Part shown: piece after piece, positions 15,960-37,038 of the stretch
Layout: each line of letters starts with the position of its first letter
Numbering within the stretch: the first letter of the stretch is position 1
From: Deltaproteobacteria bacterium
GTDB taxonomy: Bacteria; Desulfobacterota; Deferrimicrobia; Deferrimicrobiales; Deferrimicrobiaceae
Reading direction: 5' to 3'
DNA: 40,236 nt
NCBI GenBank assembly: GCA_016220005.1
Contig: JACRIV010000032.1
Location: 1-40,236 of the forward strand
Position numbers and translations under genes: made by a program
The notes under the pieces: generated by a model
Told to the model about the DNA's origin: nothing
Seen by the model: only the letters and a program-made list of their open reading frames with translations
Databases searched by the model: none

Positions 15960-16979
15960 TTGAAACATTGGCCCTGTTCGCGAATCCAAAAGGGCGGTTT
16001 CGAACCGACCTGCCGACCGGCGGCGTGCGGCGCATGGATCTACACCGGGATCATCCCCGAAGAGGGGAAGAACCGGGCGAAGTCCCGCAAGGGGGACGAG
16101 TGGATCTCGCCGAACTGGGGTTTCGCCTGGCCGGCGAACCGCCACATCATGTACAACCGCGCTTCGGCCGATACGGCCGGCAGGCCCTGGTCCGAGAAGA
16201 AGAAGCTGGTCTACTGGGACCCCGCGGCCGACAGCGGGACGAAGGACGCCCGGGGCAGGCCGGTACCGGGCAAGTGGGTCGCGCCCTCCGGCGAGGGGAT
16301 CGACTTCCCGCCGGCGAAGCCGCCCGGTTCCCGGGGGAAGGACAGCGGCCTGGCCTTCGACTGGCTGGGCGGGAACGATCCCTTCATCATGCGGTCCGAC
16401 GGCAAGGCATGGCTCTTCGCGCCGGTCGGCCTCGTGGACGGACCGATGCCCGCGCACTACGAGCCGTACGAATCTCCGGTCCGCAACCTGCTCTATTCGC
16501 AGCAGTCCAACCCGGTGGCGAAGGTGTGGAAGATCGAGGGGAATCCCTATCACAAGACGGCCGACCCCGGGTTCCCCATCATCGTCTCCACCTACCGGCT
16601 GACCGAGCATCACCTGAGCGGGACGATGAGCCGGTGGCTCCCCTGGCTCGCGGAGCTGATGCCCGAGCTCTTCTGCGAGATCTCCCCGGAGCTCGCCGCC
16701 GAGAAGGGGATCAAGAACGGCGGGTACGTCACGATCCGCACGGCGCGGGGCGAGGTCCAGGCCCGCGCGCTGGTGACGCGCCGCATGCGCCTCTTCACCA
16801 TAGCCGGCAGGACCGTGCACGAGATCGGCCTGCCTTGGCATTGGGGCTGGCAGGGGACCGCGCAGGGCGACGTGGTGAACAACCTGAGCGCGCTCGTGGG
16901 GGACCCCAACGTCACCATCCACGAAGGGAAGGTCTTCACGTGCAACGTCCGCGCGGGGAAGAAGGGAGGCGCCGCATAA
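15960..16979 (+). pseudogene. Formate dehydrogenase alpha (molybdopterin oxidoreductase) C-terminal remnant; catalytic N-terminal two-thirds absent
   Basis: Homology starts ~16015 at CGAWIYTGIIPEEGKNRAKSRK; PNWGFAWPANRHIMYNRASADTAGRPW and C-terminal MopB domain present, no [4Fe-4S]/Mo-ligand region; opposite-strand gene starts at 15907. Confidence 0.85.
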
Positions 16980-30076: not shown

Positions 30077-31087
30077 TTACGGCGTGAGCACCGCCCGCAG
30101 GCGGACCTGCCCTTTGCGCAGCCTGTCCAGGACCTCGTTGACCTGGTCCAGCGGGTAGTGCTCCACCATCGGGGCGATCCCGTGGTCGGCGGCGAATCGG
30201 AGCATGGCGTCCATGTCGTCCCGGGTCCCGATGACGGAGCCGCAGATGGCTTTCTGGCCCGTGATCAGCCCCGCGGGGATGAGCGAAGCGCTCTCGGCGA
30301 TCGCGGCGAGGACCACCAGCGTTCCGTTGGGACCGAGCCCCGGGATGCACTGCTCGAAGAGCTTCGCGGAGATGCCGGTGAGCAGGATCAGGTCGGCGCC
30401 TCCCATCCGGGAGAGCCGGCTTCCGATCTTCTCCTTCTCCGTGTCGACGACCTCCCGGGCTCCCATTTGCCGGGCGAGGTCGCTCTTCCCTTCCCCTCGG
30501 AGGATGGCCACCACCCGGGCTCCCATCGCCGCCGCCATGCGGAGCGCGAGATGCCCCAGCCCCCCGATTCCCGCCACCGCGACGGTTTTCCCGGCGAGGT
30601 TGCCCGCCCTGCGCAGGGGGGCGAAGACCGTGATCCCCGCGCACAACAGGGGGGCGGCCGTAACGAGGTCCAGCCCCTCCGGTATCCGGTGAGTGAAGGC
30701 CGCGGGCGCCTTGACCCGCTCCGCGTAACCGCCGTTCACCGTGACCCCGGTGCTCTTCTGGCCGGCGCAGAGCATCTCCGCGCCCGAGCGGCAGGGGGCG
30801 CATTGCCCGCACGCGTATTGCATCCAGGGGACTCCCACGGGGTCCCCCGGCTTGAGGCCGGTCACCGCGCTCCCCGACTTCTCGACGACCCCGGTCACTT
30901 CGTGCCCGGGGATGATGGGCAGCGGCGTCCCCCAGTCCTTCCAGTCCCCGTCGACCAAGTGGAGGTCGCTGTGGCAGACCCCGCAGGCCTTGACCCGGAT
31001 CAGCACCTCCTCCGGCCCGATGGAGGGGGCCGGGACGTCCGAGAGGACGAGCGGCTTTCCGAACGCTTCGCAGACGGCGGCTTTCAT
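30077..31087 (-). CDS. Zinc-dependent alcohol dehydrogenase
   Basis: VKACGVCHSDLHLVDGDW...PIIPGHEVTGVVEKSG...CGQCAPCRSGAEMLC; AVAGIGGLGHLALRMAAAMGARVVAI. Confidence 0.94.
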   Translation of the reverse strand: MKAAVCEAFGKPLVLSDVPAPSIGPEEVLIRVKACGVCHSDLHLVDGDWKDWGTPLPIIPGHEVTGVVEKSGSAVTGLKPGDPVGVPWMQYACGQCAPCRSGAEMLCAGQKSTGVTVNGGYAERVKAPAAFTHRIPEGLDLVTAAPLLCAGITVFAPLRRAGNLAGKTVAVAGIGGLGHLALRMAAAMGARVVAILRGEGKSDLARQMGAREVVDTEKEKIGSRLSRMGGADLILLTGISAKLFEQCIPGLGPNGTLVVLAAIAESASLIPAGLITGQKAICGSVIGTRDDMDAMLRFAADHGIAPMVEHYPLDQVNEVLDRLRKGQVRLRAVLTP

Positions 31088-31564
31088 CTAAGTGTCCCCC
31101 GCCAGCTCGGCGATCTCCGCGCTGTCGCTGATCTCGATGGCGCCCATCACGCTCATGGCGCCGGGGCATTTCACGAGGTAGGTCCCGAGCGCCTCGCGGG
31201 CATCCTCCGTCTTCCCCGGAGGGACCTTGAGCGTGTACTTCACCCGGATCTTCGTGATTCTAAGCACCCCTTCGACATCCTCGATGTCCCCCTCGACGTC
31301 GGCCCGGAACCGGTCGGCGAATGTGGGGATCTTCTTTCCGGCCAGCACCGTGGCCAGTGTCCCCATCATTCAGCCGCCCACCGCCCCGACGATGTGGTCG
31401 AGCGTGGCGGCGTGCTCCTTCTCGGGCTCCACCTTGTAGAAATGCTTGATGCCGCCGTGGACGCCGTAGTAGACCGGCTCCGCGAACCCCTCGATGACCG
31501 CCTTCCGCGTCGGCCCCTTCTCGCGGGTCACCACGATCCGAGACGTGTGAACCACCCGGCCCAT
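31088..31564 (-). CDS. OsmC-family peroxiredoxin-like protein with in-frame TGA (31370-31372) at the first catalytic Cys position; candidate selenoprotein
   Basis: Two contiguous same-frame ORFs: ...HAATLDHIVGAVGG-[TGA]-MMGTLATVLAGKKI...LRITKIRVKY...YLVKCPGAMSVMGAIEIS; second OsmC Cys (KCP) intact. Confidence 0.85.
31325..31372 (-). promoter_or_regulatory. Candidate bacterial SECIS downstream of the TGA
   Basis: Minus strand TGA-N12-CTGGCC-ACGGTGCT-GGCCGG (31338-31357; 6-bp stem, 8-nt loop), possible outer stem GGGGA/TCCCC (31360-31364/31325-31329). Confidence 0.5.
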
Positions 31565-31677
31565 GTCGTTCTCCTTTCCCCGTGGTAGTCGCCGCCCGGT
31601 CCTTTTGTTGCCGGGCGGGGCGGGAACGTTTCGGCGGCGTCCTCGCCGCCCCCCGGATACTATGCACCAGACGCCCC

Positions 31678-31815
31678 CTATTCGTCATCCAGCATCCTGT
31701 GCTTCGCACCCTCCACGTCGTCGTACTGGTCGCTGCGGACCGCCCAGACGAACAGGAGCCAGGCGCCGGCGCCAAGGACGATCGAGATGAGGATGAGCAG
31801 CCAGGTCGTCCACAT
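31678..31815 (-). CDS. ccoS: cbb3-type cytochrome oxidase assembly protein CcoS (45 aa)
   Basis: MWTTWLLILISIVLGAGAWLLFVWAVRSDQYDDVEGAKHRMLDDE; missed in the ORF track because of its length. Confidence 0.9.
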   Translation of the reverse strand: MWTTWLLILISIVLGAGAWLLFVWAVRSDQYDDVEGAKHRMLDDE

Positions 31816-31827
31816 CGCTCTTTTCCT

Positions 31828-34245
31828 TTATGCCTTCCTCAATCTCATGGAATTCCCCACCACCATCAGCGAGCTTGCCGCCATGAGGGCCGCAGAGAGG
31901 ATCGGGTGGAGGTTTCCCGAGACCGCGAGGGGGATCGCGACCAGGTTGTAGGAAAAGGCCCACGCCAGGTTCTGGCGGATGACCCTCATGGTCTTCCGGG
32001 AGATCGACAGGAAGCGGGGGATGAGCCGCAGGTCGTTCGTCATCAGGACGGCGTCCGCGCTCTCGAGCGCGATGTCCGTGCCCCTTCCCATGGCCATCCC
32101 GACTCGGGCCTCGGTCAGCGCCGGGGCGTCGTTGACCCCGTCCCCGATCATCATCACCCTGCCTCCCGCGTTCCGCGCCTTGCCGATGATCTCCGCCTTC
32201 TCCACGGGTGTGACCCGGGACTGGACGAGGTCGATCCCCGCCTCCTTCCCGATGCGCGACGCCACCGGCCCGCTGTCCCCGGTGACCATCCGGACGCGAT
32301 AGCCTTCCTTTTTCAGCAGGCGGACCGACTCTTCCGCTTCCCCTCGCAGTTCATCCACGGAGGAGAGCAGGCCCAGGACCTGTTTTTCGTCGGCCAGGAA
32401 GACCGCCGTCCTGCGCGCCTCCGAGATCTCGCGGAACCTCTCCTCCTGGGCGCCGGTGACCGGGACGCCGTTCAGGGAGAGAAACTTGGCATGCCCGAGG
32501 AACAGCCGACGACCGCCGACGATCCCTTCCACTCCCAGACCGGCGTGCGCCTTGAAGGCCGAGACGTCAAGGAGCTCTCCCGGCGCGACGCCGCGGCCGA
32601 TGGCCTTGGCGATCGGGTGCTCGGACGGGGCTTCCAGGGAGGCGGCAAGCCGCAGAACCTCCCGCGGCGCAAGCCCGAAACCGTCCACGTGCGCCAGGCA
32701 CGGCCTGCCGTAGGTCAGCGTCCCGGTCTTGTCGAGGAACACCTCGGTCACCGACGCCCCCGCCTCCAGCACGTCTCCGCCGCGGACGAGGATCCCCTGC
32801 GCGCGGGCCGCGTTCGACCCGATGAAGACGGCCAGGGGGGTCGCCAGCCCCAGGGCGCACGGGCAGGCGACGACCAGCACGGAGATCGCGACAAGGATCG
32901 CACGGAGAGGGGGGTCCCCCCACTGCAGTCTCGCGCCCAGGGTGAGGGCCGCGACGGCGATCACCGCCGGGACGAACCATCCGACCACCCTGTCTGCGTG
33001 GCGCTGGACGGGAGCTTTCCTCGCCTGGGCCTCCTCCACCGCTCTGACGATGCGGGAGAGGACAGTCTCTTTGCCGGTCTGCGTGACGCGGACGACGAGC
33101 CTTCCGCTCCCGTTGACCGTTCCCGTGCAGACCGCACTCCCTTCGCCCTTGGCGACGGGACCGGCTTCGCCCGTGAGCGTCGATTCGTCCGCCTCGGAGG
33201 CCCCCTCGATCACGATCCCGTCCGCCGGGATCTTCTCCCCGGGAACGATCTCGATAATGTCGTTCGCCCGGAGGGACGACACCGGGACCGTTTCGGTCCG
33301 GGGGGCGTGTCCTCCGAAGCCGCTCCCCATCCTTCTCCTCGCCTCGCGGGGGGCCAGGCGGACGAGCCGGCCGATCGATTCCTTTGCCCTGCTCCTGGCG
33401 GCCGCCTCGAGATACCTGCCGAGCAGGATCAGGGTGATGATCATCCCCGCGGTGTCGAAGTAGACCTCCCCGCCGACGACGAGCATCGCGGCACTGTATG
33501 CATAGGCGGAAAAGGAGCCCAGGAAGACCAGGGTGTCCATTCCGGGGGCGCGGTTCCGGATCCCCGCCAGGGTATTACGGAGGAAAGGGTATCCCGAGTA
33601 GAAGATCACCGGCGTGGTGAGCGCGAACGACAGCCACTGGAACCACGCGAGGAATTTCGGCTCGATCCCCTGGAAATATCCCGCGTAGAGCGCGGTGGTG
33701 AAGGTCATGACCTGCATGGAGAGGAAGGCGGCGGTGCCGAACCGGAGCAGCAGGTCGCGTTTCTCCCGGCGCAGGCTCTCTTCGAGCTCCCCGGTTTCGC
33801 AGGGGTGGGGCGCGTACCCAAGCTCCCGGATCCAAGAGGCGATCTCCGCGATGCCTGCCGATCCCGGGCGAAAGCGTATCTTCGCCCGGCCGGTGGCGTG
33901 GTTTACCCGGACGAGGGATACCCCCGGCTTCCGGCCGAGGTACCGCTCGATGACCCACACGCAGGAGGCGCACCGGATCCCGGAGATCGCCAGGGTTGCC
34001 TCATGCTCGCCCTCCCTCTCGACGACGCAATCCGAGAGCGCATCCGGGTCGGCTGCGAAGAGCTCGGGGGGCCCGGGGACCCAACCGGTCCGCCTGCGGT
34101 AGAACTCCGCGAGACCTTGGGCGTGGAGGAGCGCGTAGATGGACCGGCAGCCGGGACAGCAGAAAAAGGCTTCCCTGCCCCCCACCTCCTCGCGGATCGC
34201 GGTGTTCGCGTCGAGGGGGAGGAGGCAGTGTTCACAGGTCGCCAT
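31828..34245 (-). CDS. ccoI: Copper-translocating P1B-type ATPase (CcoI-like)
   Basis: IRCASCVWVIERYLGRKPGV, ACPCALGLATPLA (CPC), FLDKTGTLTYGR, MIGDGVNDAPALTEARVG. Confidence 0.94.
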   Translation of the reverse strand: MATCEHCLLPLDANTAIREEVGGREAFFCCPGCRSIYALLHAQGLAEFYRRRTGWVPGPPELFAADPDALSDCVVEREGEHEATLAISGIRCASCVWVIERYLGRKPGVSLVRVNHATGRAKIRFRPGSAGIAEIASWIRELGYAPHPCETGELEESLRREKRDLLLRFGTAAFLSMQVMTFTTALYAGYFQGIEPKFLAWFQWLSFALTTPVIFYSGYPFLRNTLAGIRNRAPGMDTLVFLGSFSAYAYSAAMLVVGGEVYFDTAGMIITLILLGRYLEAAARSRAKESIGRLVRLAPREARRRMGSGFGGHAPRTETVPVSSLRANDIIEIVPGEKIPADGIVIEGASEADESTLTGEAGPVAKGEGSAVCTGTVNGSGRLVVRVTQTGKETVLSRIVRAVEEAQARKAPVQRHADRVVGWFVPAVIAVAALTLGARLQWGDPPLRAILVAISVLVVACPCALGLATPLAVFIGSNAARAQGILVRGGDVLEAGASVTEVFLDKTGTLTYGRPCLAHVDGFGLAPREVLRLAASLEAPSEHPIAKAIGRGVAPGELLDVSAFKAHAGLGVEGIVGGRRLFLGHAKFLSLNGVPVTGAQEERFREISEARRTAVFLADEKQVLGLLSSVDELRGEAEESVRLLKKEGYRVRMVTGDSGPVASRIGKEAGIDLVQSRVTPVEKAEIIGKARNAGGRVMMIGDGVNDAPALTEARVGMAMGRGTDIALESADAVLMTNDLRLIPRFLSISRKTMRVIRQNLAWAFSYNLVAIPLAVSGNLHPILSAALMAASSLMVVGNSMRLRKA

Positions 34246-34260
34246 GGGTCGGTACTCTCC

Positions 34261-34953
34261 TCAACGCAGCAGGCCCCTGGCGGCGTAGATCCCCCCCAGC
34301 GCGACGAGGAGCAGCGCCGCGATGCGGTACAGCCTGCTCCGCAACCGCCCCCCCAGCAGGCCCGCCGCCTTCCCGATCAGGAGCAGGGAGGGGACCGTCC
34401 CCGCGCCGAAGAGCGCCATCGCCAATAAACCGCGCAGGAACCCCTCCGCGGGGGTCTTTGCCTCCATCCCGACCCTGGCCGCGGACAGCAGGGCGGCGTA
34501 GACGATCCCGCATGGCAGGAATCCGAGGACCATCCCGAGCGGGTAGAAGGCCCCGATCCCTTCCTGGTCCGCAAGGGCGTGGACGATCCTCGGGAAGGGC
34601 TTTGTCGGGTCGAACCTCCCGAAGGCGAAGTCCTTGCGGCCGATCCACCCCCCGATCGCCAGCCCGAGGATCATGATCAGTACCCCCGTTCCGGCCAGGA
34701 CTGCTTTCTGGAACGGCTCGATGGGCACGGCTATCCGCACAAAGGAGCCGCTAAGGCCGACGGCTCCGCCGAGGAGGGCATAGGTGGTCACCCGCCCGAG
34801 GTTGTACAGCGCATGGGGGAGCAGCTCGCCTCTCCGCCCCGGTCCCAGGGCCAAGGCCGCGACGAAGGGGCCGCACATGGCAATGCAATGCCCGAACCCC
34901 CCGAGCAGGCCGGAGGCGAGGAGCACCGCGTAGGTGGAATCAGCGGACCACAT
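34261..34953 (-). CDS. Sulfite exporter TauE/SafE family protein (CcoS/CcoI-associated)
   Basis: LLASGLLGGFGHCIAMCGPFVAALAL...HALYNLGRVTTYALLGGAVGLSG...LGFLPCGIVYAALLSA. Confidence 0.9.
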   Translation of the reverse strand: MWSADSTYAVLLASGLLGGFGHCIAMCGPFVAALALGPGRRGELLPHALYNLGRVTTYALLGGAVGLSGSFVRIAVPIEPFQKAVLAGTGVLIMILGLAIGGWIGRKDFAFGRFDPTKPFPRIVHALADQEGIGAFYPLGMVLGFLPCGIVYAALLSAARVGMEAKTPAEGFLRGLLAMALFGAGTVPSLLLIGKAAGLLGGRLRSRLYRIAALLLVALGGIYAARGLLR

Positions 34954-35770
34954 CGAACGTGTAGGCGACTTCCGTCCCGCCAGGCACGGAAACGGTGGCC
35001 GCCCAGGTGCGCGCACCGCTGCCGCACCGGACGATCACCCCTTTTCCCCGGAACCGTCCGTCGCCTCCCTTTCGGAGGCCTACCCGGTTGGGGGGCATCC
35101 GCATCCCGGGCATGGAGAGATCGATCCATGGAAGCCCGTGTCCGTCGTATCCCGCGATCTCCACGGTGAAGAGGAGCTCCCTCATCGCCGTCACGGGCTT
35201 GGGGGCGATGTCCAGCGTCACCGTCAGATCTCCGGCGGATTTCGTGACGGGCCCCGCGTGAAGGGCCTGTCCTCCGCAGTCGCTCTGCGGCGGAGGGAGG
35301 ACGGCGTCTTTCCCTCCGTGCGCCGTCTCCCCGGCTCCCGCGGCGGCGATCCATCGTTTCTGCGCCCGGATCGCTCCGCTCTCCGCCTCGAGCCGGAACA
35401 TCCATTCCCCCTCCGCCGGCAGGAAGACGTCGGCGGCGTAGCTTCCCGGATTTCCCTCGGCCAGGGTGAACTTCCGGTCGCCGTTCACCCCCGATATCCG
35501 CATCGCCGCGAGGGTCACTTTGGCGCCCCGAAGGGGCCCGGAGGAGGTGGAGATCGCCGCGGAGAACCTGTTGTGCCCCTTCTCGAGAGATTGGGGGACG
35601 CTGATCGACAGGCCGGCCCGTTCTTCCCGTTCCCTCTCCGCAAGGTAGCCGGTCGCCCGCAGGTAGTAGTTCTCCTCGACCAGCCCGTCGTAGGATCTCC
35701 CGGCGGCGTAGAGCGAGAGCCCGAGCAATATCGCGAACGCCGCGTATATCCCGCAGATCAGCTTCTTCAC
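34940..35770 (-). CDS. FixH/CcoH-like membrane protein fused to a second YtkA-like domain
   Basis: N-terminal TM, GRSYDGLVEENYYLRATGYLAER (FixH), C-terminal SMPGMRMPPNRVGLRKGGDGRFRGKGV (YtkA-like). Confidence 0.75.
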   Translation of the reverse strand: MKKLICGIYAAFAILLGLSLYAAGRSYDGLVEENYYLRATGYLAEREREERAGLSISVPQSLEKGHNRFSAAISTSSGPLRGAKVTLAAMRISGVNGDRKFTLAEGNPGSYAADVFLPAEGEWMFRLEAESGAIRAQKRWIAAAGAGETAHGGKDAVLPPPQSDCGGQALHAGPVTKSAGDLTVTLDIAPKPVTAMRELLFTVEIAGYDGHGLPWIDLSMPGMRMPPNRVGLRKGGDGRFRGKGVIVRCGSGARTWAATVSVPGGTEVAYTFDVVR

Positions 35771-36521
35771 GGGAAGGTCACCTCTTTTTTTACGGCGAAC
35801 CCCGGGCCGCTGGCCACGAGCACGACGCGGTTCGCGGCTCCCCCGGGACGTTTTGCCAGCAACTTCCCCGCGCGGCGGGAACGCGGCGGGACGGTGATCT
35901 CCCGGTCGCCCATGAGCGTCGCCCCTCCCTCAATCCCCAGGCGGAGCGTCATCGGATTGCCCGTTCCGTTTCGGACGGCGTATCCGTAACGGTTGGCGCC
36001 GGAGTTCCCGATCTTCTCCTCCCAGTGCGCGTCGAACGCCACGCCGGGCCGCAGCGCCAGAAAGGCGGCGAAGGCGAGCCCGGCCGCGGCGGGCGCGGCG
36101 CCCGCGAGCGCCGCCTTGCCGCGGAGGATCCTCCCCCGGTAGGCGATGAACGGGTCGATGCCGCGCCGCGCCGTCATCGACCGGCAGGCGTCGATGCACT
36201 CCGCGCAGGCGATGCACTCCCGTTGCGCCCCGTTCCGGACGTCTATTCCGGCGGGACAACGCGCCACGCAGAGATCGCAGCGCAGGCACGACGCGTCCCG
36301 ATCCCGGTCGTAGGCGATCGTCAGCGTGTTCCCGTCGAAGAGGACGTTCTGGAGCATGGCGTACGGGCACACCGACCGGCAGAAGCGGACGCCGGCGAAG
36401 GCGAGCACAGGTCGGGGATATCGAAGCGCAGCAGGCTCTCCCCGCCGGCCGAAAGGAAAGGGATACCCAGCACTGCCGCCGCCTGGGCAAGGGCGGCGAC
36501 CCGCCTCCTTCTTTTCCACAT
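35767..36521 (-). pseudogene. ccoG: CcoG-like ferredoxin, probably disrupted by internal deletion/frameshift at ~36408
   Basis: N-terminus MWKRRRRVAALAQAAAVLGIPFLSAGGESLLRFDIPDL in one frame; VLAFAGVRFCRSVCPYAMLQN...CLRCDLCVARCPAGIDVR...CIACAECIDACRSM in another. Confidence 0.65.
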
Positions 36522-36561
36522 GCGAGGTTCCCGTGTCTCTCACGCGGAAGGCTGCCCGTGA

Positions 36562-37038
36562 TCAGGGCTTGGCGCCCCGCTCCCGGACGGAGTCCACGTA
36601 GGCAAGCACCTTCCAGATCCGCTCGCGGCCAAGCTGCGCCTCGAAGGAAGGCATCCCGTTCGGCCGTCCCCCGGCGATCGTCTCGTACTTCTTGTCGTCG
36701 GACTCGCCGTATTTGAGGTGCGCGGTCAGGTCGGGTCCCACGCCCCCCTTGAGGTCCTTGCCGTGGCACCCGGAGCAGTTCTCGCCGAAGATCACCCGTC
36801 CTTCGACGATCGCCTTGGGGTCCATCTCGTAAGGGTTTTCACGCATCGCGCCGGCCGGCGCCGCCTTGCGCGCGTCGGCCGTCTCCTTTTCCAGCACCCT
36901 GTACTGGGACCAGCCGCTGATCTCGGGCGTGTACCGGGCGATGTAGTAGACCCCCCAGGCGATCAGGGCGAAAAAGAAAACGAGAAAGGCCCGCGGCGCC
37001 TTGTTGTGGCGTTCGAACTCCCGGAGCTCCTCCGTCAT
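36562..37038 (-). CDS. ccoP: cbb3 oxidase subunit III (CcoP), short form with a single CxxCH heme site
   Basis: RAFLVFFFALIAWGVYYIARYTPEISGWSQ; GRVIFGENCSGCHGKDLKGGVGPDL; MPSFEAQLGRERIWKVLAYV. Confidence 0.88.
   Translation of the reverse strand: MTEELREFERHNKAPRAFLVFFFALIAWGVYYIARYTPEISGWSQYRVLEKETADARKAAPAGAMRENPYEMDPKAIVEGRVIFGENCSGCHGKDLKGGVGPDLTAHLKYGESDDKKYETIAGGRPNGMPSFEAQLGRERIWKVLAYVDSVRERGAKP

Follow-up and report, generated by a model that had tools for sequence, protein, structure and literature searches.

In Ohr proteins, an Arg and a Glu activate the first of two cysteines, the peroxidatic one; a disulfide then links it to the second Cys and is reduced by lipoylated proteins (PMC5962072). 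OsmC-like proteins carrying selenocysteine (Sec) are already known as a kind. Three Sec-containing sequences sharing the motif UxxT were reported from the Sargasso Sea in 2005, with two sets of 10 and 17 Cys homologs (PMC1088965), five Sec and 161 Cys sequences were found in the GOS data (PMC2398784), and the group appears in catalogues and reviews of 2022 and 2026 (PMC9312934, PMC13188914). The first-pass annotation of the locus described here, which pointed to such proteins in earlier metagenomic surveys, was correct on this point.

The present gene lies in a 40,236-nucleotide stretch of a deltaproteobacterial draft genome (hereafter, the window), on the minus strand. Two abutting open reading frames in the same frame (31564-31370 and 31369-31088) are separated by a single TGA at 31372-31370, within GAVGG-[TGA]-MMGTLATVLAG, exactly as first annotated, and no other stop interrupts the joined frame. 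Read through, it encodes a product of 158 residues (MGRVVHTSRI...GAVGG-U-MMGTLATVLAG...LVKCPGAMSV...) in which the UGA is codon 65; were it a stop, the truncated product would have 64 residues. The features of the locus are as follows.

31571..31576, minus strand: ribosome binding site (AAGGAG) preceding the ATG at 31564 by 6 nt, read from the sequence
31088..31564, minus strand: predicted gene for an osmC-like selenoprotein of 158 aa, ending in TAG, with U65 and C133 (read-through translation; Pfam OsmC, 36.8 bits; TGA in 79/79 relatives)
31370..31372, minus strand: UGA read in frame, predicted to encode Sec65 and located at the first (peroxidatic) Cys position of OsmC/Ohr (translation, profile alignment and conservation)
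31338..31357, minus strand: upper hairpin of a predicted bacterial SECIS, with a CUGGCCA/UGGCCGG stem of 7 bp, loop CGGUGC, UGA-to-loop distance 19 nt, -11.5 kcal/mol
31325..31364, minus strand: extended SECIS hairpin with lower stem GGGGA/AUCCCC, -16.5 kcal/mol, the lower stem not being kept in all members
31166..31168, minus strand: codon (TGC) for the predicted resolving residue, Cys133, which is unchanged throughout the family (translation and family alignment)
30077..31087, minus strand: zinc alcohol dehydrogenase/aldehyde-reductase-like gene, its ATG directly after the osmC stop

A promoter scan returned nothing, and Rfam placed no family on the stretch, giving only a sub-threshold chance match.

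The read-through product scores 36.8 bits against the Pfam OsmC model (PF02566), above the gathering cut-off of 27.5. Its similarity to characterised OsmC and Ohr sequences is weak: the best NCBIfam OsmC match, the subfamily model TIGR03562, gives 13.3 bits, far below its cut-off of 85.8, and a phmmer search of PDB sequences with the single protein returned no match. A family profile was therefore needed for PDB matches; built from 38 relatives, it retrieved E. coli OsmC (1qwi, 1nye), Thermus OsmC and Ohr proteins with E values of 0.004-0.06. In the alignment to 1qwi (E 0.004), codon 65 is matched to the Cys in AAHAACFSMA, and Cys133 to that in CPVSQ. The by-eye placement of the TGA on the first active-site Cys, with the second Cys retained in LVKCPGAMSV, is thus borne out. 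An AlphaFold2 model computed from a 38-row alignment (mean pLDDT 93.7, pTM 0.85) adopts the OsmC fold, and all 50 PDB structural matches listed are OsmC/Ohr or OsmC-like proteins, with TM scores of up to 0.75 by query; the best among those listed is an uncharacterised OsmC-like protein, 2onf. Profile alignment and model together place the protein in the OsmC superfamily, its first redox position being occupied by a UGA and its second by a Cys. It resembles E. coli OsmC and bacterial Ohr in its predicted fold and in having two redox positions separated by some 66-68 residues. It differs from them in having Sec in place of the first Cys, in its very low identity and in an N-terminal region with invariants of its own. 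The residues invariant in the subfamily are R20, H36, Y43, D56, G68, T69 and E95. As regards the Arg19/Glu51 set of Ohr, R20, at best a possible counterpart of the Arg, is invariant; the family alignment has no obvious Glu about 10 residues before U65, and in this the subfamily may differ from Ohr. The genome also encodes a second OsmC-family protein (L016; G000:C118:37966-38283), in which the first Cys is kept (GLGSCLAVG) and a Ser replaces the second (SPVMDIV).

One recent mutation, or a TGY codon misread as TGA in sequencing or assembly, would leave a lone stop in a frame that is clean elsewhere. The distribution of the codon among relatives makes such a pseudogene or error extremely improbable here. 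TGA occupies codon 65 in all 79 distinct full-length relatives, which span several phyla and reach down to about 31% identity, and also in three partial ones. The residues that follow it are [ML]xGT in 79/79, and the second Cys is present in all full-length relatives but one, whose codon contains an N. Codon differences in 19 comparisons fall at third positions in 521 of 762 cases upstream of the UGA and in 675 of 1303 downstream, a pattern that indicates purifying selection on both sides. Since third positions carry most of the differences on either side and the TGA is found in every full-length relative, assembly error and recent decay are excluded; the conservation of the TGA by itself refutes the pseudogene or assembly-error candidate.

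The same uniformity was encountered in each set of genomes searched. One genome per GTDB species yielded 42 relatives, of which 41 cover the site, all with TGA. In 198 related genomes, further relatives carried TGA in every case except two remote proteins (L088 and L089), which have TGC at the site and are 31-34% identical over part of their length. Profile searches of the phylum of an Acidobacteria member (297 genomes) gave matches in 26 genomes, every site-covering match having TGA, and those of the phylum of a Planctomycetaceae member (392 genomes) gave two matches, both with TGA. No Cys form was detected among full-length relatives in about 900 genomes searched by profile or protein; the scope of this search also includes one pattern-based scan of a species collection, which finds close relatives only. 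The relatives come nearly all from metagenome-assembled genomes. Binning or gene transfer may account for the phylum labels of single members (L022, Verrucomicrobia; L027, Actinobacteria; L048, Nitrospira), and the family tree is a quick build with unreliable deep branches. The first annotation had suggested looking for TGA or Cys in homologs at this column. The usual mixture of the two is absent, and a subfamily with TGA throughout strengthens, and does not weaken, the case for a Cys-to-Sec substitution. Three relatives (L053, 1719-2243; L045, 2001-2471; and L090) have another in-frame TGA close to the C-terminus, most likely a true stop codon.

According to the bacterial SECIS model, the hairpin has a loop of 3-9 nt with a G in its first two positions, an upper stem of 4-16 bp, a spacing of 16-37 nt from the UGA and a minimum free energy of at most -7.5 kcal/mol (PMC13188914). 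The hairpin that follows the UGA agrees with the model in all of these respects. Compared with shuffled sequences, its fold taken singly is unexceptional (z -1.36), and the argument for a SECIS is for this reason a comparative one. Where the amino acid is the same, codon identity at the stem codons 70-71 and 74-75 is 0.88, 0.88, 0.81 and 0.65, against a mean of 0.43 outside, and of all stretches of 11 codons in the gene, the one that begins with the UGA has the highest synonymous conservation. In a comparison of 49 distinct sequences, 97.7% of cells keep the stem paired, more than in any shuffle or slid register, and the stem contains compensatory changes from C-G to U-A and from G-C to C-G. 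An automated SECIS test is passed by 43 of 55 distinct members, versus 47 of 301 control windows (16%) from the same genes; among the 12 members that fail, several do so through competing pairing in a short fold, with the 7-bp stem still possible.

The main-layout hairpin cannot form in a distant clade recovered mainly by the Acidobacteria search, in which only 49% of the corresponding cells are paired. Members of this clade carry another stem of 7 bp (GGCGCGC/GYGCGYC), which is capped by a UGGAA-type loop and starts 6 nt further downstream, so that the UGA-to-loop distance is 25 nt. The shifted stem is paired in 95.2% of cells and includes four compensated pairs, a covariation reached by none of 500 shuffles. 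Because a different hairpin keeps the same function, selection on Sec insertion is strongly supported.

These hairpins bear directly on whether the UGA could be a true stop, with the locus comprising two genes or being expressed by termination and reinitiation at TGAATG. An ATG directly after the stop is indeed found in 62 of the 79 members, as this explanation would have it; the remaining 17 read TGACTG or TGACTA and have no ATG there. No ribosome binding site was seen upon inspection of the sequence before the inner ATG at 31369, both halves are required for the OsmC fold in the model, and the stem-loop is conserved and covarying at the RNA level. We therefore regard a genuine stop as very improbable.

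The means of decoding the UGA as Sec are largely present in the genome, a draft of 2.32 Mb in 142 contigs that is 90.7% complete. It contains a tRNA-Sec (75.6 bits, anticodon TCA), SelA (570 bits), SelB (a 641-codon frame, 338 bits) and a full-length Sec formate dehydrogenase (G000:C59; 1390 bits) with its TGA in ARIUHSATVAAL. SelD was not found in this draft with a family profile and a relative's protein as queries. Thus, of the selA, selB, selC and selD genes that the first-pass annotation proposed to look for, the first three were recovered and the fourth was not. SelD is present in 31 of 40 genomes of the related set, and the majority of same-family genomes have it, with a TGA of its own; incompleteness of the draft is therefore the most probable explanation for the missing gene. 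Outside this genome, a tRNA-Sec scoring at least 65 bits was found in 28 of the 32 others in which the gene occurs (duplicates removed), and the other four have no clear one.

The formate dehydrogenase and SelD selenoproteins of this genome and family resemble the OsmC-like protein in depending on the same UGA-decoding system with an in-frame SECIS; they are unrelated proteins, from families with known Cys forms (PMC1794560). In L060, L062 and other related genomes SelD is itself a selenoprotein with one in-frame TGA, and several genomes have two copies. The window also holds, at 15960-16979 on the plus strand, a fragment from the C-terminal end of a formate dehydrogenase alpha subunit (TIGR01553 positions 725-1008 only, the molybdopterin-binding domain); no N-terminal part lies upstream, and it is a truncated copy.

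Reassignment of UGA to an ordinary amino acid throughout the genome would likewise leave the frame open. However, several orthologs, among them L070, L021 and L022, themselves end in UGA, the genome possesses the Sec-insertion set except SelD, and the SECIS is conserved, all of which makes reassignment a most improbable explanation. The invariant TGA, the conserved and covarying SECIS, the tRNA-Sec, SelA, SelB and the Sec formate dehydrogenase uphold the original proposal of a Cys-to-Sec substitution over random decay. Very probably, then, the gene product is a true selenoprotein belonging to the OsmC/Ohr superfamily, in which a SECIS directs Sec insertion at UGA65, most likely for peroxidatic and resolving chemistry between Sec65 and Cys133.

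We propose that UGA65 would be decoded by the tRNA-Sec, SelA and SelB of the host, with decoding directed by the SECIS hairpin 19 nt downstream, within the coding region, as indicated by the conservation and anatomy of this element. The folded protein would be a dimer, like OsmC and Ohr. Sec65 would act as the peroxidatic residue, its selenolate attacking a hydroperoxide or a similar electrophilic oxidant to give a selenenic acid, which Cys133 would resolve to a selenenylsulfide that is in turn reduced by a cellular dithiol. By analogy with the family, a redox role for the Sec65-Cys133 pair is likely. The particular substrate, probably organic hydroperoxides, and the dithiol reductant are suggested with a confidence that barely exceeds an even chance. 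Peroxidase activity is uncertain because the similarity to characterised OsmC and Ohr proteins is weak and the Ohr Glu has no obvious counterpart, and to the hydroperoxidase role we assign a probability of a little over one half.

The same selenoprotein might alternatively be no hydroperoxidase at all, and could serve as a Sec-based reductase or a sulfur/selenium-transfer protein of the wider OsmC/YhfA group acting on another substrate. Its sequence is distant from true OsmC and Ohr, its closest structure among those listed is the uncharacterised 2onf, the invariants R20, H36, Y43, D56 and E95 are not clearly the Arg/Glu set of Ohr (PMC5962072), and the neighbouring genes differ between clades. 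On the other hand, no member has lost either redox position, Sec is well suited to peroxide chemistry, and the gene here follows a cbb3-oxidase assembly cluster, even though this neighbour is not conserved among relatives. We consider a non-peroxidase function a serious possibility, if one clearly short of an even chance.

The cluster in question (31678-37038, minus strand) lies directly upstream of the selenoprotein gene and on the same strand; it comprises a copper-type P-type ATPase, a DsbD-like protein, FixH, a cytochrome c and, as its last member, FixS/CcoS (31815-31678). Downstream, the zinc alcohol dehydrogenase/aldehyde-reductase-like neighbour is shared by about eight distinct relatives of the same family. 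Clustering of the neighbours among relatives gave only clade-specific genes and no functional context.

Returning to the Sec65-containing hydroperoxidase candidate and its family, the protein is like the catalogued OsmC-like selenoprotein in belonging to PF02566/COG1765, in having Sec at the catalytic Cys and in being followed by a bacterial SECIS. Judged by the published description of the motif, it would be set apart from the UxxT entry by U[ML]xGT, with the Thr at +4, in 79/79 members. Going by the same kind of descriptions, the catalogued entry is outnumbered by its Cys homologs, whereas the present subfamily has no detected Cys form. We found no paper on this subfamily in the open-access literature beyond the OsmC-like catalogue entries. 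What appears to be new here is a U[ML]xGT subfamily that occurs in several phyla with no detected Cys forms and with two predicted SECIS layouts. That it represents an uncatalogued and always Sec-dependent branch of OsmC with no Cys version, found in Desulfobacterota-like bacteria, Acidobacteria, Planctomycetes and others, and whose SECIS has moved at least once, is a more tentative claim, to which we give close to, and slightly less than, an even chance.

Gene finders split this protein in two or lose its first half. Moreover, nearly all selenoprotein families have Cys homologs (PMC13188914), and a family of some 80 genes that has none is easily missed because some search methods require them. 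The two SECIS layouts within one family amount to a natural experiment on the relocation of a hairpin inside a coding sequence. If the subfamily is truly Sec-only, Sec would be essential to its chemistry and not an optional upgrade of Cys, and families lacking Cys homologs are well suited to the question of when Sec is indispensable.
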